A DNA stretch of 42,787 nt from Methanobacteriota archaeon. GTDB taxonomy: Archaea; Thermoplasmatota; Poseidoniia; Poseidoniales; Thalassarchaeaceae. Under the pieces are notes generated by a model. That model was not told the origin of the DNA. It worked only from the letters and a program-made list of their open reading frames with translations, and did no database searches. A program made the position numbers and the translations under genes. The DNA is taken from contig PBBV01000023.1 in NCBI GenBank assembly GCA_002717835.1, positions 1 to 42,787 on the forward strand, in the 5' to 3' direction. Each line of letters opens with the position of its first letter. Position 1 is the first letter of the stretch. This document shows, piece by piece, positions 2-23,738 of this stretch.

Positions 2-3000
2 GATGACGACAACGACGGTGTCAACGACGGCCCAGACCCCCATCCGCTAGACGAGTGCTACTGGTCCGACAACGACCAGGACGGAATCGCCGACTACAAC
101 AACGAGGGTAACTGCGTCGCTCACATGACGTCCTTCGAGTCCGGCGCTGCCGGCGGGATGTACACCGACACCGATACTTCAGGAGTTGCACACGATCTGT
201 CCAACAACGCAGGAGAGGCAGAGGTCAACTACGATGCACCTGCGACCTACACAAGTGCTTCCGCATGCCCTGAGGGATACGGCACACCATGGGTTGTTGG
301 AGCAGGAAGCTGTACCGTGACCGTACCAAGCGGAGGCTATGCTGAGGTCAGTGTCTTCTGGCCTTACTTCTCACCGTATGTTACGCTAGAATCCACCTCG
401 CCATCGAGCGTCGTGACCGATCTAACATCCACGCCATACGGAACAACACTCCAGTTTACAGAAGCTGGTGACTGGACGTTCTCATGGACAGACGACGGCA
501 CGTGGAACGCGATCGCACTGATCGCAACCTCCTATACGCCCGTAACCCCATTCGAGCTGGGCTATCAGGCCTCGTGGGCACCTAGCGCCAACTCAGGAAG
601 CGGCCTCACAGACGGTGACTACGTCGGAGTGACGGATTACACCGGTGAGGTCGGAGCATACTTGGACGGCAGATTAGGCTACCAGATGTCAGACACCGAC
701 GGTGCAATGTCCCTAACGCTGGACGCCATCGATCCAACAGGACTGACGGCTGTAGTGTCCTACTTCCTAGCTGACACGACCTACGAGGACGACGACTCGG
801 TGAGTATCGAATTCGTGGGATCCTTGTCCACAATATCATTGCTATCAGCCAATGGAGTCAGCGCAACCGATGCCGCTGGCGGAGATGGAATGGAAGCACT
901 AGCAGGAGCTTGGACAACGGTCAGCGCGGATATCTCCGCTGCAGGCACTGGAAGCCTTGTCATGACCTTCGATTCCAACGCAGGAACCGAGGCGCTATAC
1001 CTGGACAATGTCTACTTTACGACAAGTTACGTCGCCCTCGACAGCGATGACGACAATGACATGAGACTAGACGGCTACGACTGGTGCCCGCTAGATCCGA
1101 CCGAACAGGACGACAATGACGAGGACGGTATCTGCGACGACACAGACTTGGATGACGACAATGACGGTGTATTCGACTTCAATGACGAGTTCCCGCTTGA
1201 CGGTACCGAGAGTATCGACGATGACGGCGACGGAATCGGCGACAACGCGGACCCAGACGACGACAACGACGGTACTGACGACGCCAATGATGCCTTCCCC
1301 AACGACCCGTCAGAAACTGATGATTACGACGGCGATGGAGTGGGTGACAATGCGGACACCGACGACGACGGTGACGGCGTGAGCGACCTTGAGGACGTAT
1401 GGCCTCTAGACAACACCATGTCCACGGACACAGACGGTGACGGCACGGCAGACTTCTACCTGACTCCAGCACCTTACTCGTTGATGAACTTCGAGTCTGG
1501 CTCTCTCCCAACCGAGGGCACATGGACATCCTACTCGTGCTCCATAGGTGGCGCATCAGCGCCTGTTCACCCATCTGTGAGCTGCACGAACTCGACAATG
1601 TACGGACCATGGGCAGTGACCTCTTCCAATGCAATCGCAGGTACCTACTCTCTCGACTCAGGACAGAACTCTGCACAATACGGTACCACGAGCATCATGG
1701 TACAGTTCGAAACCCTCGGTGGGACAGCTACATGGGATTGGCAGGTAAGCACCTTCTTCAGGGACTACACAAGCGTCTACTTCGACGGACTAGAGGTATG
1801 GGCTGATGGTGTTCGGATACCGGCATCATCGCTCGGATCTCAGTGCGCTAACGACGTATGGTGTGGCGAGGATTCGGGTAGCATGTCATGGGACTTTGGA
1901 CCGGGAATACACGACCTGACCTTCACTTTCAGGTCCGGCACCAGCGGAACTGGTGGCACTAACCAGGCTTGGATAGACAACCTACAATTGCCATTGAATG
2001 GAATTTCCAATCAAATGGATACAGATGACGATAACGATGGGATACTCGATGCAGACGATCTCATGCAGTTCGACCCATGCGTTGGTCTCGACAACGACGG
2101 AGATGGCGCTTACGACGACATGGTCGGAGTAGGCGGAGCAGGCGTGGACTTTGACGGATTGGCTTGCGACCCATCGATGTACGATATCGACTCAAACGAC
2201 GACAATGATGATTGGAGCGACGTGGATGAGGTCAACTGCGGGACAGATCCAATGGACTCTACGGACTTCCCCGCAGACTTTGACGGGGATCTGACGTGCG
2301 ACCCGGTAGATCCAGACGACGATAACGATGGCGTGGAAGATGGAAGCGACGCTTTCCCGAACGACCCATACGAATCGTCCGATCTCGATGGTGACTCGAT
2401 TGGAGATAACGCAGACAACGACGACGACGGCGATGGATATCTAGACGGCGCCGACGCCTTCCCAACGGATGCTTCAGAGTGGATTGACTCTGATGGCGAC
2501 GGAACCGGGGACAACGCCGATACCGACGACGACGGCGATGGCGTTGCTGATGATTTGGATGCTTTCCCTCTGGATGACAGCGAAACTGTTGACTCGGATG
2601 GAGACGGATTCGGTGACAACATAGATCCCGACGACGACGATGACGGGGTCCTTGATGAGGTTGACAGCTTCCCGAATGACGACACAGAAGCAGTTGATAC
2701 AGACGGCGACGGAATCGGCGATGTCCAGGACAACGACGACGACGGCGACGGAGTCGAAGACTCCAGCGATGCGTTCCCTCTGGATGCATCAGAGACATCT
2801 GACTTCGACGGCGACGGCATCGGCGACAATACCGACTCCGACATCGACGGTGATGGATACTCCAATGCCCTCGACGTGTTCGATTACGACTCCTGGGAGT
2901 GGGGCGACGTGGACGGGGACGGAATAGGCGATAACGCTGATAGCGACAACGACAACGATGGCGTCTCCGATGAGTTGGATGCCTTCCCATTCGATGCTTC

Positions 3001-3415
3001 CGAGACTGTCGACATGGATGGCGACGGCGTCGGCGATAATTCAGATGCCGATGACGACGGCGACTCTTACAACGACGACGTTGACGCTTTCCCAGCGGAT
3101 GAGAACGAGTGGCTCGATACCGATGGCGACGGAACCGGTGATAACACCGATTCTGACGACGACGGCGACGGATTCTCGGATGCCAATGAGAACGACTGTG
3201 GAACCGATACGCTGGACGACGGCGATACGCCCCCAGATTACGATGGAGATGGAATCTGCGATGCGCTTGATCCTAATGTCGACATCAATATCGACGAGGC
3301 TCCGGCTGAGGAGGACCTTGGATTCGGCGCAGCCGTACCAGGATTCCCAACAGCTCTCGCCGCACTTGCGCTTGTCGGAGCAGCTTTGGTCGCTGGAAGG
3401 CGAACAGAAGACTGA
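2..3415 (+). CDS. 5'-truncated secreted/surface protein with TSP3-like acidic repeats, two jelly-roll-like segments and C-terminal PGF-CTERM-like sorting signal
   Basis: The frame is open upstream of the listed ATG to the window edge (DDDNDGVNDGPDPHPLDECYW...). It contains many DxDGDGxGDNxDxDDDxDG units and ends EDLGFGAAVPGFPTALAALALVGAALVAGRRTED (PGF motif, hydrophobic stretch, basic tail). Confidence 0.88.
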   Translation, partial: DDDNDGVNDGPDPHPLDECYWSDNDQDGIADYNNEGNCVAHMTSFESGAAGGMYTDTDTSGVAHDLSNNAGEAEVNYDAPATYTSASACPEGYGTPWVVGAGSCTVTVPSGGYAEVSVFWPYFSPYVTLESTSPSSVVTDLTSTPYGTTLQFTEAGDWTFSWTDDGTWNAIALIATSYTPVTPFELGYQASWAPSANSGSGLTDGDYVGVTDYTGEVGAYLDGRLGYQMSDTDGAMSLTLDAIDPTGLTAVVSYFLADTTYEDDDSVSIEFVGSLSTISLLSANGVSATDAAGGDGMEALAGAWTTVSADISAAGTGSLVMTFDSNAGTEALYLDNVYFTTSYVALDSDDDNDMRLDGYDWCPLDPTEQDDNDEDGICDDTDLDDDNDGVFDFNDEFPLDGTESIDDDGDGIGDNADPDDDNDGTDDANDAFPNDPSETDDYDGDGVGDNADTDDDGDGVSDLEDVWPLDNTMSTDTDGDGTADFYLTPAPYSLMNFESGSLPTEGTWTSYSCSIGGASAPVHPSVSCTNSTMYGPWAVTSSNAIAGTYSLDSGQNSAQYGTTSIMVQFETLGGTATWDWQVSTFFRDYTSVYFDGLEVWADGVRIPASSLGSQCANDVWCGEDSGSMSWDFGPGIHDLTFTFRSGTSGTGGTNQAWIDNLQLPLNGISNQMDTDDDNDGILDADDLMQFDPCVGLDNDGDGAYDDMVGVGGAGVDFDGLACDPSMYDIDSNDDNDDWSDVDEVNCGTDPMDSTDFPADFDGDLTCDPVDPDDDNDGVEDGSDAFPNDPYESSDLDGDSIGDNADNDDDGDGYLDGADAFPTDASEWIDSDGDGTGDNADTDDDGDGVADDLDAFPLDDSETVDSDGDGFGDNIDPDDDDDGVLDEVDSFPNDDTEAVDTDGDGIGDVQDNDDDGDGVEDSSDAFPLDASETSDFDGDGIGDNTDSDIDGDGYSNALDVFDYDSWEWGDVDGDGIGDNADSDNDNDGVSDELDAFPFDASETVDMDGDGVGDNSDADDDGDSYNDDVDAFPADENEWLDTDGDGTGDNTDSDDDGDGFSDANENDCGTDTLDDGDTPPDYDGDGICDALDPNVDINIDEAPAEEDLGFGAAVPGFPTALAALALVGAALVAGRRTED
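1112..1426 (+). repeat. Three tandem 105-nt (35-aa) TSP3-like units
   Basis: Units begin at 1112, 1217 and 1322: DNDEDGICDDTDLDDDNDGVFDFNDEFPLDGTESI / DDDGDGIGDNADPDDDNDGTDDANDAFPNDPSETD / DYDGDGVGDNADTDDDGDGVSDLEDVWPLDNTMST. Confidence 0.9.
2276..3220 (+). repeat. Nine tandem 105-nt (35-aa) TSP3-like calcium-binding units
   Basis: Unit starts fall at 2276, 2381, 2486, 2591, 2696, 2801, 2906, 3011 and 3116, with consensus DxDGDGxGDNxDxDDDGDGxxDxxDAFPxDxSExx. Confidence 0.9.
3336..3412 (+). other. PGF-CTERM-like archaeosortase sorting signal (within the CDS)
   Basis: VPGFPTALAALALVGAALVAGRRTED at the extreme C-terminus: PGF, then a TM-like stretch, then an Arg cluster. Confidence 0.82.
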
Positions 3416-15073: not shown

Positions 15074-18000
15074 ATGCCTAGTTTGGAATATGTGACTGAA
15101 TCCTCAGAGAGCGAAGAGCTCTTGGAGAGCCTGTGCCAGCCTGTAAGGGAGTGGTTCAAGGATCGCTTCCCTGATTTCACTGAGCCCCAGAAGATGGCCA
15201 TACCTCAGATAATGGGTGGAAACCACCTCTTGCTCTGTTCGCCAACAGGAAGCGGGAAGACCCTCACGGCGTTTCTAACGATAATTGATGATTTAGTCAG
15301 GAGATCTATGAATGGTAAACTCGAGGATGGCGTTTCATGTGTCTACATTTCGCCGATCAAGGCCCTTGCAAATGACATTCAAAAGAACCTCATAGGCCCA
15401 CTAAACGAAATCAGGGAATCATATCTTCCGAAGAGGTCCAAGGAAATCAGAGTGGGCCTTAGAACAGGTGATACTACTCAGAAAGAAAGAGACAAGATCC
15501 TCAGAAGTCCGCCTCACATACTAATCACCACGCCGGAGTCTCTTGCCCTCGGACTTGCATCCAAGAGATTCCGCCCGATATTATCCGGATTGAAGTGGAT
15601 GATAGTCGATGAAATGCACTCCCTCGTACCATCGAAGAGAGGTACGCACCTCGCATTAAGCCTCGCTCTGTTGGACAGGGTTATCCAAACCCCTGTTCAG
15701 AGAATAGGAATATCCGCAACAATGGAGCCTCTAAGCAAGGTCGCTGAGTTCCTAGTTGCGTCCGATGCAAGGGAGACGGAATCTGAGCCACAGACTATCA
15801 AAATAGCCAAAATATCTGGTGCAAGAAGACTCGATTTGGACATACTCCTGCCTACTCCGAGATTCTCATCCGTTCCCGTGAAAGAATTGCTGGATTACAA
15901 TGTCGACGTCATCAAGAATATGGTAGAGGCTCATACTACCACACTCGTATTCGTCAACACTCGTAGCATGACAGAGACTGTCGTCCAGAAGCTAAGACTG
16001 GCGGGACTCCAAGGAGTAGAGGGGCATCATGGGTCAATGGACAAATCGATTCGTTTGGATGTCGAACAGAGACTCAAGAATGGACATCTTCGTGCTGTAG
16101 TATCTTCTTCCAGCTTGGAGATGGGTATCGATATCGGGTCAGTAGACTGCGTTGTGCAGGTCGGATCCCCTGGATCCATTGCAACAGCCCTCCAACGCGT
16201 TGGTAGGGCCGGACATCAGGTTGGCGGGGTACCCAGGGCAAGATTCCTCCCAACATCATCTCATGACCTCCTTGAGATTACCGCGCTCCAGACGGGCATT
16301 CTACGGGGATCTATGGATCTGCTGAAATTCCCTGAGAATGCATTGGATGTTCTGGCCCAGTTCATGATAGGGCTTACGATAGTCTCTGAGTGGGACATAG
16401 ACGATGCCTACGAACTTGTGACTTCTTCTTGGCCATACAGGAATCTACCTTACGATGACTACATCGAGGTGCTGGACTTGCTGGGGGAAGAGCGCCGAAT
16501 GTGGATAGATTGGGAAGAGAACACCATAGGAAAAAGAGGCTACGCCCAGATGATTTACTACACCAACATCGGAACAATAGCTCCCGATAACAATTACCTC
16601 GTATTCTCCTCGGATGGCACGATGGTTGGACAGCTTTCAAGCTCGTTCGTCTCTAGTTTGAGAAGGGGGGATGTTTTTCTCCTAGGAGGCTCGACATATC
16701 GCGTATCGAGTATTATCGGGACACGTGTGAACGTTACCTCTGCCACAGGATACAGACCCACAATACCATCTTGGACCGGCGAAGCCAATAGCAGGTCAAT
16801 CGAACTGTCTCAAGAGGTTCTCGAACTACTTTCCAATGTCTCCGATGTGCAGAAGGTTTCCGGCGACCTGCCAGAATTCCTTCGGGAGAACTATGGCCTA
16901 GGTAAACAAGTTGCGGGAGCTCTAGCACAGTTCTTGGACGAACATGCAGCCACAACATTCCAAGTCCCGTCCAGGCGAACCATACTCATAGAGGAAATTC
17001 AGGGCCCCCTTCCTACATACGTGGTCACAACCTGTCGTGGTAGAGGGTTCAATCTCGCTTTGGGCTACATGTTCGCCGGAATGGCGGACCGTGAAGGAAT
17101 CCTTGTTCATGAGGTTTCATTTGATGAGAATGGATTCATGATAAAGCTAAGTCATGATTTGGAGGTTTCCGCGATAACCGACCTCTTCTCCTCGGATACG
17201 GCAGACGAGGTGCTCAGGAAGTACCTCCTCGACACACAGCTGTTTGCAAAGCGTTTCCGCGAGGTTTCGTCGAGGAGCATGTTAAATCCTCGGAGGATCG
17301 GAGCTGACGAGATCAGCCCAAAACAATTCCAACAGCGTGCAGAGCAGTTGCTGACACAGCACAAGCAGGCGGAGGACTCCGTGCTGATAAGGGAGGCTAT
17401 GAGGGAAATCACCCGTCATGATCTGGAACTTGAAGAGTTGAGGGAACTCATGTCCGGAAAAGGATCAGAGTCACTAAGCATAGTACATCGTCGAGTGAAA
17501 ATACCGTCCCCACTCGGCCTGACCCTATTCATGTCCGCTTTCGAGGACCTCCTATCTTTGAGGACTCGCGCCTATCTAATCAAGGACGTTGACCCAGAGA
17601 TTCTCCGTCGCCTTCTCGGTGCAAGGTCGCTAGCTACCGAACTTGATAGCGAGTCACTCGACACATATTACCAGTCCAAGGTGGAAGTTCCCTCTGACGC
17701 AGAGGGGCTCCTCAGGTTGATGGACATAGGAGGGGGGCTTGAAAGGGAGCTGACTCATCCCTTGTACAGCGAGAAACTATCCGGAATCAGCCTAGACACG
17801 ATCCGATCATGGGTTCACGAACTAGCTGAGGATGGTAGGATAACCAAAATACGATCAACAGGTAACAACCAGATAGACGGCAAGTGGTTCTCCCAGAGGA
17901 TGGCAGGAGTCCATGGCACTTTGGGAGTTCTGTCGGTTTCAGGCGCCTCAGAAATGGACGACCTCAGAGAACTCTACACGGGGGGGCTGTCCTTTGAGAT

Positions 18001-20365
18001 AGCATCGGATTTCACCGGCGGCGCACCAGAAAAGTGGTTGAAAACAGAGCTTTCAGATGCTGTAGACTGCTTACGACTCAAACTCTTGGATATGTTGGGT
18101 TCAGAGGGCCCCAGAACGCTCGACGCAATCTCTGACAGACTTCCATTTCCCAAGGCACAGGTAGATGCGGCGCTTCAAGAACTTGAAATGAGGAACCTAG
18201 TTGCAATCGGCTTCTTCACGCAAACCGATGAGGGGGAGTACATTCTCCGACTGGACGAGTATAGAATAACTGGAGGGAAACTGAATGTAGTGGACTATAG
18301 GACCCTCCAGACACTGATTTACAATAAATCATTCGAGCGCAGGCTTGAACCACTCGACGCTATAAGGGACCTAGTCTTTGTCCAGCGAAGGGATGAACTA
18401 CTCTACAGAGTCAAGGACTACCGATTCAGAGACTGGATCGACATAAAGCACGACAGAGATATCGTAAACGGGCGTTTGCTCCACAATCGTGTCGGATACA
18501 CCCATCGTAACCAGATACCCCTGCTTCTCGGACTCAGAGCAGAGCCATGGCTCGGTCCTATGGAATTGGAACTTTTGGAAAAGATTCCCGAGTCAGGCAT
18601 AACAAGGGCGAAGCTCCTCAAGATGTATCCCTCTGGAAAGGAGAACCAGCATGTTCAGAGGACAGTCAAAAGTGCACTATCGAATCTTGAAAGGCAACTC
18701 GCCACGGTAAAGAGATACGAGAAGGTGCCCAATAGGAAGCGGTCCGTCTCGTACATCGAGAAGGTCCACGGCGCTATAGAGCCGATGAGCTTCGAGGATT
18801 CCATACATCTCCTGATAGAGAGAATCGGACCCATAAAGCCTCAGATACTCAGGTTTTACGTCAGCAGGCCAGTAGAGGAACTAGCAGAGGCTCTTAGGAT
18901 ACTGGAGTCGAGCGGCAGAGTTTCCAAGGTCGTTGCACTTCAGCCAGACCCGACTGATTATTACGCCTCGCCAAAGGACGCAGAAAGGCTCCTAGCACCA
19001 ATGCAGGAAGACAGATCGATGAGGATTCTCTCTCAGTCCGATCCTTTCTGCAGCCGATTTATACAGGAAGTACGTCTGGTGCTCAGGCAGGGATGGTATA
19101 ACCCTGTTTTCAAGGGTGTAGACCCAGTCGGTCGCATACTGATGTTCGTTGTAAATGACTACTTGGAGATAAAGGACGTCCACGTGCCTCTGAGCTACCT
19201 TGAGGAATTCAAAGATGCATTCGGTGAAATGCTCGATAACTATCGGGATCGACTCGTCGACATCTCTGTCCTCCATGCCTTCAATGGGGTTCCAGTCCAC
19301 GACTGTGACGAGAATATTCAATCAGTACTTGCTGACCTTGGATTTTCTTCCATGGGCGACGGAGAGCGCTATCTCCGAGGAGGGGTAGTTCAGCCGAGAC
19401 CTAGGAAAGACGCTTACAGGGCCCTTTTCCACCACCAGAACATGCATCAAAAAACCAGATGGGAAAATGAGACCATTGCACTTGAGAATATCGCTGAATT
19501 GCGGGACGATTTCGCCCTTAGGGGGAGGTGCGAAATGTATCGTGTTGATTTACAGTCGATGGCCTCTGCACACCAGCTACATCAAGGCACAAATCTGAGG
19601 CATCACCTGATATGGGCTAGATACGGGCATTTCCAGCGACTCCTCACAATACGAAACTCGGAGCCTCCAGAGGAGGATATGGATGTGATACAGTTCTTCG
19701 ACGAACATCATGATGCGGAACTCTTCATGGAACGTCATGCCTTGAAACGGTCAGAGTTCAGGAAGATAATTTCCCCCCTCGTCCGATCGGGACACATAGT
19801 TCAGGATTACAGGGGCGGATTCAGGACCGTCCAGCCTCTGAAGAATGTCGACCTGTGGGACGTTAAAAGGAAGTATATTGAAGACCTTGTTGAGAACTTC
19901 CCCATACTGACTTTGAAGCAAACAGAGAGACTCGCAGGATCAGCATTCTCAGCAGAGGAAATATCCGATGTTATGAGGGGGCTCGAGGAAGAAGGCGTGC
20001 TCACCCGAGGTTTCCTGGTAGATGACATGCAAGACGTATGTTGGGGCAGATTGGAACTCCTGGAAAGTGGAAGCAGCGCGGTCAAGACCCGAGATTTGGT
20101 GATACCCCCAAGCGACTCTTTGATCCATTATTTCTCGACCATCCTCCGTAGTCGATTTGGATATGGATCAGCATACCTCGTTTTCCACAAAGAGGAGCCC
20201 ATTGCTGCATTCAAAGCCAATACCAGGGAAGGCCTGTTGGAAATAACAGATTTTGTCGGGGACTCAGACCTTGAGAGGGAGGCCCTTAGAGTCATGAAGG
20301 AATTCGCATGGGAACACGATATGCCACTCTCTGGAAAAATATACGAGAGACTAAGATCCAGGTGA
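15074..20365 (+). CDS. lhr: Lhr-type (large helicase-related) SF2 DNA helicase with very long C-terminal extension
   Basis: [15 protein letters not shown] (Walker A), MIVDEMHSL (motif II), [48 protein letters not shown]; about 900 aa of additional winged-helix-like sequence. Confidence 0.87.
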   Translation: [1763 protein letters not shown]

Positions 20366-21319
20366 ATCTTTCTTCCTGAGTGGCAATTCCAGAATCCTGA
20401 TTACGTGGGCGTGAAGTTCCGGAAGAAGCCCAAAGAGTGCAAGCGCCATCAAGAACATGGCCCCTAGGCTTGCCACCTTTGCCGCATAACTGTGGGCGAA
20501 TTCAAAGATATCCATGCCAAGCCACCTCCAATCCTGGTAATTTACATGCAACCACACTATCCCTGCGTTTCTAAAAGCGTTCAGAATGAATATGGTTGGG
20601 ACCGCTATGAACAATCCACGAGCCTTCCTTTTCCAACTCACGCCAGACAATGCTACTATCGCCCCGACGAAGACAATCATTGATTGCAACGCTGAACAAG
20701 AAAGTATGAATCCGATGCTAACCGGCTGTCCACTCGAATCGACCATGGGCAGGTAGAAACCTCCTTCTCCCAGTGGTTCAGTAAGTATGACTCTGCTGCC
20801 ACCCCACTCAGTAGTCAGTATGTGACCGCCTTGAGCCAGATCGACCATCATAGGTCCCAAGGAGTATGAACCAGCCCCCGACGCCTTTAGCCACCAGACA
20901 GTGATCGAACCCGTCATCTCCACGAAGCCCATGTTAAGCGCGGGTACGGCATACACGACGTAGTATGGAATTACACTCCAAGCAACCGCCCCCCTCAGCC
21001 ATACAAGAGTTGGATCCAGTCGAGAACCGTTCATCTCAACATATGCTAAAACTACACCCGCAGGGAGACACACCGATGTCATGATCACAAGGACAGGATC
21101 TTCAATCTCTACATAATGTTCAGCTAAGAGATATACTGAGATCCCGGATAATAGCCATCCAACTGCTGCATACACGGAACGCCCCTTTGATTTTTTCCTG
21201 TGAAATTCAATCGCCAGGAAGAGGGCACCTGTTATGGTAATGAAGATCCGCATCATCTCTGGATGCACGCCAACGGCCTCTGAGATGTAGCTGACCATGA
21301 GGCCGACGGGCTCCTTCAT
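20351..21319 (-). CDS. artA: Archaeosortase A-like (exosortase/archaeosortase family) membrane transpeptidase/protease
   Basis: Polytopic protein with candidate catalytic motifs in order: LSCSALQSM (Cys), LNAFRNAGIVWL (Arg), FEFAHSYAAKVAS (His). Confidence 0.85.
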   Translation of the reverse strand: MKEPVGLMVSYISEAVGVHPEMMRIFITITGALFLAIEFHRKKSKGRSVYAAVGWLLSGISVYLLAEHYVEIEDPVLVIMTSVCLPAGVVLAYVEMNGSRLDPTLVWLRGAVAWSVIPYYVVYAVPALNMGFVEMTGSITVWWLKASGAGSYSLGPMMVDLAQGGHILTTEWGGSRVILTEPLGEGGFYLPMVDSSGQPVSIGFILSCSALQSMIVFVGAIVALSGVSWKRKARGLFIAVPTIFILNAFRNAGIVWLHVNYQDWRWLGMDIFEFAHSYAAKVASLGAMFLMALALFGLLPELHAHVIRILELPLRKKDSPGS

Positions 21320-21369
21320 GTTGCTCAACTATCCTCAACGCGTATAGAGGATGCCCGAATCCGAGTACT

Positions 21370-22467
21370 GTGCATCACGATGAAGTGGGCGACACTCGCG
21401 CAACGGTTCTGATTCCAACTATCAACAATCCGAATGAACTCAGAGTAGTACTTGAGCGGCTTCTTCAGGATTCGGACGGATCTTATGATATCAAAGTCAT
21501 CGATTCTAGTAGCAATCAGGAAACGTCAGAATTGTGTTCGGAACTTGGAGTTCAACGGATTGCCGACTCCAGCCGAACAAGGGCAGATGCGTGTAACAAT
21601 GGCTTGTCTGAAGTGCAAACCCCGTACACGTTATTCACAGATGATGACGTCATACCACCTTCAAAGTGGGTCAAGAGATTGACTAGATGGTTCGACAATG
21701 AAAATGTAGCAGGCGTGGGCGGCACGAATTTCGCTCCAGACGAAGACCCGTGGCTATCAAAATGCACCGATGTAGCATTTGGAGCACGCATCATGACTGC
21801 TGGGACCAGATACGGCGCGAGACCGGACGCAGAGCTTGTCGAAGTGACACATAATCCTGGCGTCAATGTCGCCTATAGAACAGAAGTACTCAGGGAGGTC
21901 GGGGGATTCGATGAAGGCGCTATTGGCGCTGAGGATGTATTGCTCGACTCAAAGATAGTAAGTGCTGGCCATCGGCTGTTCCTTGACCCCTCCTGCACCA
22001 TGCCTCATCGACGTCGACCGGCCCTCATCCCTATGATGAAACAAATCCGTAATTATGGCTACGTTAGAAGACTTGCAATTGACAGGGAACCCTCGCTGAG
22101 ATCTCCCACACACAGAGCCGTCCAGATGTTCCCTTTGGCCGTTGTTATTGCTTCCCTAGCTCTGGCATACGGTGTAGCCAATGGTGGAGCTCAGTGGGAA
22201 TTTTGGTTCACTCTTGAAGGCGAATGGGACGCCTCCAGAGCGTCATTTCACTTCTCTCTAGGTGCAATCTCTCTCTACCTCTTGGTATGCGTCCTCGGCG
22301 CGGCGCTGGGAACCTCCCCTCATAGATCCGTAAGTACTGTATTGGCTTCTTGTATCACTATACCCGCGGCACACCTGGCCTACGGATGGGGTATGATGAA
22401 AGCCGAGTGGGGCCTTTTGGTGGGCTCTATTTCAATTACGGCAATAGACGACAAGGAGCGATCTTGA
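21370..22467 (+). CDS. Family 2 glycosyltransferase with C-terminal TM segments
   Basis: ATVLIPTINNPNELRVVLERLLQ, LFTDDDVIPPSKWV, GGFDEGAIGAEDVLLDSKI, followed by hydrophobic helices. GTG start. Confidence 0.87.
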   Translation: MHHDEVGDTRATVLIPTINNPNELRVVLERLLQDSDGSYDIKVIDSSSNQETSELCSELGVQRIADSSRTRADACNNGLSEVQTPYTLFTDDDVIPPSKWVKRLTRWFDNENVAGVGGTNFAPDEDPWLSKCTDVAFGARIMTAGTRYGARPDAELVEVTHNPGVNVAYRTEVLREVGGFDEGAIGAEDVLLDSKIVSAGHRLFLDPSCTMPHRRRPALIPMMKQIRNYGYVRRLAIDREPSLRSPTHRAVQMFPLAVVIASLALAYGVANGGAQWEFWFTLEGEWDASRASFHFSLGAISLYLLVCVLGAALGTSPHRSVSTVLASCITIPAAHLAYGWGMMKAEWGLLVGSISITAIDDKERS

Positions 22468-23738
22468 TGTCTGATTCAGAACGAGTCATTGTGAAAATAG
22501 GGCTGGATGACACCGATCATCCGGAAGGCGGATGTACGACATACGATTTGAATGAGCTATCCAGATTGCTCACACACAACATCGATTCCGCAGAAGAGAT
22601 AGAAAGGAGGCTGGTCAGGCTATGGCCTTTCGCTGAACGCAGAACTCGGGGGAATGCCGCATTGTGCCTCTTGATCTCAATCAACCCGAAGGATATCGGG
22701 ACACTCCACGAAATTCTTCAGCATTGGATACCAGAGCCAGATTATTCAGAAATTAGAAATGCATCGAGGCCAGCAATTGTAGTTGGGTTAGGGAATGCCC
22801 CTGCGTCATGGTATTGGGAAACAGTCAGGGGTTATGTGCTCCTTGATGATAGATTATCATCCATTGAAGCATCCGATTATCGGGTAATTTCCCGCAGCAA
22901 CAGCCCTCATGGAGCAATCGGGGCATCAGCAGCCGTTGCATGGCCAGCCTCCGATTTTACTTGGGAACTCGTTGCTTGGAGACATCCAGATCGTGTAGGC
23001 AGTCCAAGAGTTGTTGATGCAGAACTCATAGAATCATTATCTGTCAGACATCCCGGTACATTTGCCAACAGGGACCCTACTACTGGAAGGTGCCTAATAG
23101 CGCCAAGGACGCCTTGTCCAGTACTATATGGCATCAGGGGCCTCAGCCAGTCCTCAATTACCGCTGCACACAATGATCTACAAGCTTCGGATTCCATTGA
23201 ACAGAGTTTTGAATTCGGGATACATAGGACAAATCAATGCAGTGATGATCATCTGGACTATATTTTCGTCGGGACAGTTACCAGTGAGCCCGTCATCGGC
23301 CCCGGCGGACATGTGTCTATGACAGCGATATCAGGCGGGAAGAACGAGTCTTTAGTGGCTTTCAAAGAGGGTGGCCATGTAAATTCAGAGGTTCGAACTA
23401 TGCATGTCGGGGACATCATAAGCTGGGTCGGACTTCGCTCACCCAGCGGCTCAATACACCTTGAGAGAGTGTGTTTGGTCGATCCGGTCCCGATTATCAA
23501 GAATCGACCAATTTGCTGTGGTTCCTCCATGAAAAGCGAGGGTAAGAGATCATTACTCCGATGCCCAAAATGCGAGACGAAACGCGAGAGATCATGGGTA
23601 TCCATGCCCCTACGAAACGCAGGTGTATGGGCCGAGCCACCTCCCAGCCACAGAAGGCACATAGCAAAACCACTTTCTGAAGGGCTGCCGTATGTTGCTC
23701 CCCTAGCAACCGGTTTTGCCCCATCCCCACCAAAGTAA
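22467..23738 (+). CDS. tiaS: tRNA(Ile2) 2-agmatinylcytidine synthetase TiaS
   Basis: MSDSERVIVKIGLDDTDHPEGGCTTYDLNELSRLL; IGASAAVAW; C-terminal zinc-ribbon-like CCGSSMKSEGKRSLLRCPKC. Start overlaps the GT2 stop (TGATG). Confidence 0.9.
   Translation: MSDSERVIVKIGLDDTDHPEGGCTTYDLNELSRLLTHNIDSAEEIERRLVRLWPFAERRTRGNAALCLLISINPKDIGTLHEILQHWIPEPDYSEIRNASRPAIVVGLGNAPASWYWETVRGYVLLDDRLSSIEASDYRVISRSNSPHGAIGASAAVAWPASDFTWELVAWRHPDRVGSPRVVDAELIESLSVRHPGTFANRDPTTGRCLIAPRTPCPVLYGIRGLSQSSITAAHNDLQASDSIEQSFEFGIHRTNQCSDDHLDYIFVGTVTSEPVIGPGGHVSMTAISGGKNESLVAFKEGGHVNSEVRTMHVGDIISWVGLRSPSGSIHLERVCLVDPVPIIKNRPICCGSSMKSEGKRSLLRCPKCETKRERSWVSMPLRNAGVWAEPPPSHRRHIAKPLSEGLPYVAPLATGFAPSPPK

Follow-up and report, generated by a model that had tools for sequence, protein, structure and literature searches.

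An archaeosortase A gene and PGF-tailed proteins in a Thalassarchaeaceae genome, and the PssA and PssD partners missing from its genus

The archaeosortase A (ArtA) of Haloferax volcanii (HVO_0915) is a TIGR04125 protein with conserved Cys and Arg residues, and it occurs together with exported proteins that end in a PGF motif, a hydrophobic stretch and basic residues. In the Haloferax enzyme, Cys173, Arg214 and Arg253 have been named as critical (PMC9263693), and ArtA-dependent maturation needs PssA (HVO_1143) and PssD (HVO_0146) (PMC7157517). In Methanosarcina, artA, pssA and pssD are clustered (PMC7157517). The exosortases of the exosortase/PEP-CTERM systems and the other archaeosortases (superfamily model TIGR04178) share the same Cys-Arg-His membrane transpeptidase core.

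Here we describe artA in a stretch of 42,787 nucleotides (the window; GenBank assembly GCA_002717835.1, contig PBBV01000023.1, positions 1 to 42,787) from an uncultured marine member of the Thalassarchaeaceae (Marine Group IIb), together with a TSP3-repeat protein that carries a PGF-type tail. An earlier note on this DNA had proposed a sortase-dependent display system outside the haloarchaea with a single giant client. The claim of novelty does not stand, since the same models match Methanosarcina acetivorans and the artA of Methanosarcina has been published (PMC7157517); the system of the window is a genuine archaeosortase system that is ordinary in kind, ArtA and PGF tails being already known outside haloarchaea. 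In our view it is highly probable that a housekeeping ArtA of the Thalassarchaeaceae cuts several exported proteins at PGF and joins them to a membrane lipid, and that the TSP3 protein is one client. A point absent from the earlier note is that the PssA and PssD partners are missing in the genus.

The comparisons covered 146 genomes of the class, 293 genomes drawn from the phylum and 11 genomes of the genus. The class set consists of 55 genomes of the family of the window (f1), 70 of a second family (f2) and 21 of a sister order (f3). From the published taxonomy (PMC6461757) and the GTDB structure, we take f2 to be Poseidoniaceae and f3 to be Marine Group III; both identities are our assumption.

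The artA gene and its product

The artA gene lies at 20351-21319 on the minus strand. The open reading frame extends over 20351-21328 (325 amino acids) when it is begun at an upstream TTG; however, the Met at residue 4 of this longer frame is invariant in an alignment of 42 family members. Therefore, the ATG at 21319 is the likely start, as the earlier note had it, and the product is 322 amino acids long. In an hmmscan against NCBIfam, the product scored 86.3 bits with TIGR04125, the archaeosortase A model (cut-off 75, E 2e-24), and 56 bits with TIGR04178, and none of the XrtH, XrtX, heimosortase, ArtB and ArtH models came near its own cut-off. The gene belongs to the core gene set of the class and is no oddity, being found in 135 of 146 class genomes, 49 of 55 family genomes and 183 of 293 phylum genomes. 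In the open-licence literature we found nothing on an archaeosortase in Marine Group II or under Poseidoni- names, or on a sortase in Marine Group III. Although NYYT01000023.1 (L163) is named after the bacterium Pedosphaera sp., it contains an archaeal ArtA locus with 88% identity, probably because the bin was mislabelled or mixed.

The presumed nucleophile, Cys211 (codon 20696-20698, minus strand), is part of the motif SCSALQSM, Arg253 (20570-20572, minus strand) is part of LNAFRNAGIVW, and His279 (20492-20494, minus strand) is part of FAHSYAAK. All three residues are invariant both in alignment A1 (15 class members) and in alignment A2 (42 family members), so the reading of the motifs SCSALQSM, FRN and FAHSYAAK as an ordered Cys/Arg/His set, first made from the window by itself, is right for this lineage. 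Three annotated ArtA proteins from plasmid records served as haloarchaeal reference rows, and the Cys and Arg of the window ArtA align exactly with theirs. In the third catalytic column, these three rows have His, His and Asp, the Asp being followed by Arg, and all rows from the phylum of the window that reach the column have His. A His at the third position matches the bacterial exosortases. The window ArtA also differs from the Haloferax enzyme in that its match to TIGR04125 amounts to only about 86 bits.

The AlphaFold model of the window ArtA has a mean predicted local distance difference test (pLDDT) score of 82. In the model, Cys211 immediately precedes helix 214-225, which is followed by the basic loop WKRKAR; Arg253 is within helix 232-263, and His279 is at the start of helix 274-297. 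Application of the positive-inside rule to these modelled helices would place the three residues near the outer membrane face. Neither a sequence search nor a fold search returned a solved structure related to the protein. According to this picture, the window ArtA would be a multi-pass membrane cysteine transpeptidase. A tailed protein would be exported until its C-terminal helix is arrested in the membrane, Cys211, helped by Arg253 and His279, would attack at the PGF motif, and the new C-terminus would be transferred to a membrane lipid. The cleavage, the transpeptidation, the lipidation and the assignment of substrates are inferred.

PGF-tailed proteins as candidate substrates

The candidate substrate in the window is an acidic TSP3-repeat surface protein encoded at 2-3415 on the plus strand. 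The 5' end of the gene is beyond the window, so the 1137 C-terminal amino acids that are present give a minimum length. They contain 28 DxDxDG motifs and are 26% Asp plus Glu, and a homologue in genome G365 has a frame of 3211 codons with 60 such motifs and an N-terminal hydrophobic segment resembling a signal peptide. The TSP3 gene reaches or comes near a contig end in most of the assemblies examined (the window, L153, L154 and L291-L297). Probably the repeats break the assembly there, and the true length of the protein is likely to be underestimated in public records.

The TSP3 reading frame ends in VPGFPTALAALALVGAALVAGRRTED. Its PGF-type tail (3335-3412, plus strand) is composed of VPGF, about 17 hydrophobic residues and RRTED, that is, the PGF-CTERM architecture of a PGF motif, a hydrophobic stretch and basic residues at the extreme C-terminus. 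The tail matches a lineage profile with E 1e-12; this profile was built from 11 tails, namely the four of the own genome and those of relatives, so the tail is itself a row of the profile and the scores of the own genome are not independent. Thus the earlier proposal of the TSP3 protein as a PGF-CTERM candidate holds as to architecture and lineage profile, and fails as to the public model TIGR04126, whose cut-off is not reached.

The TSP3 protein is not a single client, contrary to the earlier note. The own genome encodes at least four PGF-tailed proteins, the other three being an RCC1/ephrin-receptor-like protein, a protein of 965 amino acids and one of 282 amino acids. The main clients would be TSP3 and RCC1-type proteins, unlike in Haloferax, where the S-layer glycoprotein has this place. 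With the lineage profile, each of the 11 genus genomes has 3-8 PGF tails, and four in the own genome have good E-values. The public model was rejected as a census tool for this lineage because it is too insensitive: TIGR04126 gave one match above its cut-off in the own genome (the C3 protein) against four by the lineage profile. In 60 family genomes, the pattern of PGF followed by a hydrophobic stretch occurs 193 times, compared with 76 for a reversed control. When 436 kb of the own genome, including the window, were scanned blindly for hydrophobic C-terminal tails, two of the 12 tails found were PGF tails, a sample too small for statistics. Across the 293 phylum genomes, 109 have both ArtA and PGF-CTERM, 74 ArtA only, 12 PGF-CTERM only and 98 neither. 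The co-occurrence that the earlier note had suggested checking is therefore present, with an odds ratio of 12, although the p-value of 1e-17 overstates the independence of genomes that are related.

The TSP3 tail is 17 kb from artA in the window, and in 13 relatives (G010, G054, G062, G064, G065, G078, G081, G085, G087, G093, G094, G116 and G121) a TSP3-type tail is found at a distance of 17-20 kb, with the two genes oriented to each other as in the window. The pairing to which the earlier note had pointed is thus recurrent. However, an operon-type linkage was rejected, because mostly housekeeping genes stand between the two and belong to a block conserved across the family; the linkage is real, and its basis is the conservation of this chromosomal block. 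Since the conserved gene order accounts for the linkage, the proximity of the two genes might be due to chance, the TSP3 tail being an ordinary C-terminal membrane anchor while ArtA acts on other proteins, and the score below the TIGR04126 cut-off fits with this. We regard such a plain anchor as very improbable, because PGF is invariant in the TSP3 tails of seven other family genomes and in the three other candidates of the own genome. PGF is the sole invariant block of these tails, and it is common to otherwise unrelated proteins whose tails are dissimilar.

Some further observations concern the tails and sortases of the class. The protein of 965 amino acids (L050:16985-19879, contig 3 of G000) also has a lipobox-like N-terminus (...SSMAGC), so that both of its ends may serve for anchoring. 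In f3, many sorting-like C-terminal tails were seen (L088-L107), with LPGF, LPGP, LPAP, SPGL or TPSF before a hydrophobic stretch and RRR; in these genomes a single ArtA may accept a wider range of motifs, or additional sortases may exist. Many f2 genomes have a second, distant protein of the exosortase/archaeosortase family with the motif SDECAGVHEM...R...H (for example L150:2903-4267, L151:2771-3904 and L152:3258-4337). Two of these that were tested score 31-34 bits with TIGR04178, and the protein fits no named subfamily.

The lipid partners PssA and PssD

We searched for PssD with PF02666, for PssA with TIGR00473 and for CDP-alcohol transferases with PF01066. In the phylum outside the class of the window, PssD is found in 97 of 101 genomes with artA versus 18 of 104 without it. 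The two genes are within a few hundred bases of each other in many of these artA genomes, and clusters that include pssA occur in L261 and L278; the artA-pssD-pssA cluster known from Methanosarcina, with an enzyme of the same family, is common elsewhere in the phylum. Within the class, PssD is present in 63 of 70 f2 genomes, 18 of 21 f3 genomes and 4 of 55 f1 genomes. In five genus members, the own genome among them, neither PF02666 nor TIGR00473 found a match; the negatives for the own genome rest on an assembly that is 79% complete and has 31 contigs. Exactly one CDP-alcohol transferase was detected in nine of the 11 genus genomes and none in that of the window; the one that was examined (L282) has archaetidylinositol phosphate synthase as its best match, below the cut-off. 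The family of the window has kept the sortase and the tagged proteins and has lost the lipid-making partner genes.

The sister order shows the opposite arrangement. In 17 of the 18 f3 genomes with PssD, the PssD is in the reading frame of ArtA, giving an ArtA-PssD protein of 477-587 codons. Fusions are also found in two other Thermoplasmatota families (L265; L330/L331), which makes three lineages overall; examples of the in-frame coordinates are L003:1357-3117, L019:835-2406 and L265:1399-2685. On the ArtA tree the fused state takes three changes, at least two of which are forced by well-supported branches. The ArtA domain of the fusions is homologous to the window ArtA and has the same invariant residues, while the window ArtA has no PssD domain and none is detectable in its genome. 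The PssD part retains the PADG, HVNR and GSR motifs, and pssA follows the fusion in the cases examined (G001 and G025). If the fused PssD self-cleaves like other PssDs, the larger chain would, by this analogy, stay tethered to the sortase. A description of such fusions was not found in the open-licence literature, and priority is thus not proven.

Several observations weigh against the reading that the window ArtA cuts several PGF-tailed proteins and joins them to a lipid. PssD is absent from 51 of 55 family genomes, and the five genus genomes searched have no PssA-type match. The aligned third residue is His; the Haloferax enzyme depends on Arg253 instead, and since one haloarchaeal row has Asp-Arg in this place, the two residues may or may not be equivalent. 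The TSP3 tail is below the cut-off of TIGR04126/PF18204, and a Pfam scan of the protein gave TSP_3 only. Genomes G059 and G055 have PGF tails and no detected artA, which is probably due to genome incompleteness. Because of the absence of PssD and PssA, the published Haloferax lipidation route cannot be assumed here: either the anchor lipid differs in Thalassarchaeaceae, or the tails are cut without that lipid.

We tentatively propose, at somewhat less than even chances, that the Thalassarchaeaceae ArtA has been uncoupled from the archaetidylserine/archaetidylethanolamine pathway and uses another acceptor, such as archaetidylinositol, or cuts only, whereas relatives have instead fused ArtA to PssD. 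In the favoured reading, too, the acceptor lipid would not be archaetidylethanolamine, and archaetidylinositol is a possible candidate. If the proposal is true, fusion to PssD would let the sortase of the relatives receive its anchor lipid directly. A sortase that has turned protease, cutting PGF tails with no lipid so that the proteins are released, or trimmed and retained in the surface coat in some other way, is an unlikely explanation on its own. It would agree with the scarcity of PssD in the family and its absence from the genus genomes searched, with the resemblance of the sole genus CDP-alcohol transferase found (one copy, L282) to archaetidylinositol phosphate synthase, and with the long ArtA branch that leads to f1 and f2, the Marine Group II (1.66 changes per site). 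However, all presumed catalytic residues are kept, and a different lipid could act as acceptor. In Haloferax without PssA, both processing and lipidation suffer (PMC7157517); an enzyme that lacks its lipid would therefore need to have altered this requirement.

Other enzymes, with sequences that have diverged beyond the reach of PF02666, TIGR00473 and PF01066, could also have taken the place of the partners, the route being as in Haloferax. The search was made by sequence models only, and even the PssA and PssD of Haloferax are remote homologues of the characterised enzymes (PMC7157517). We nevertheless give this replacement a low probability, similar to that of a pure protease, because the same models find PssD in most f2 and f3 genomes and in nearly all artA genomes elsewhere in the phylum, and the search in the genus gave only one generic CDP-alcohol transferase per genome.

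Gene neighbourhood and implications

In the window, the genes that flank artA encode a helicase and a glycosyltransferase, and lipid genes are absent, unlike in the clusters of Methanosarcina. The Lhr-type helicase (15074-20365, plus strand) is convergent to artA and adjoins it in all 80 family loci; in the window the 3' ends of the two genes overlap by 15 bases (20351-20365). The glycosyltransferase (21370-22467, plus strand) is a divergent neighbour, and it was rejected as a component of the sorting system because it is present in only 7 of the 80 loci. Next to it is a divergent gene for a TiaS-like tRNA(Ile2) agmatidine synthetase (22350-23738, plus strand), which is near artA in 75 of the 80 loci and adjoins the artA-pssD fusion of L265 as well. 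The conserved order in these loci is TrkH, AAA ATPase, class II tRNA synthetase, Lhr helicase, artA and TiaS; the first three follow Lhr in most loci, and Lhr and TiaS flank artA family-wide.

Thrombospondin-type adhesion proteins have long been noted in Marine Group II (PMC6461757), and the system described here would offer them a concrete display route. The anchoring chemistry of archaeosortases rests on one cultured haloarchaeon, in which PssA and PssD are necessary and the acceptor lipid is unsettled. The ArtA-PssD fusions provide strong independent genomic support for PssD acting together with ArtA, and the Thalassarchaeaceae represent a natural experiment, since they retain sortase and clients in the absence of PssA and PssD genes. 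Taken together, the fusions and the Thalassarchaeaceae make the question of the lipid acceptor directly testable.

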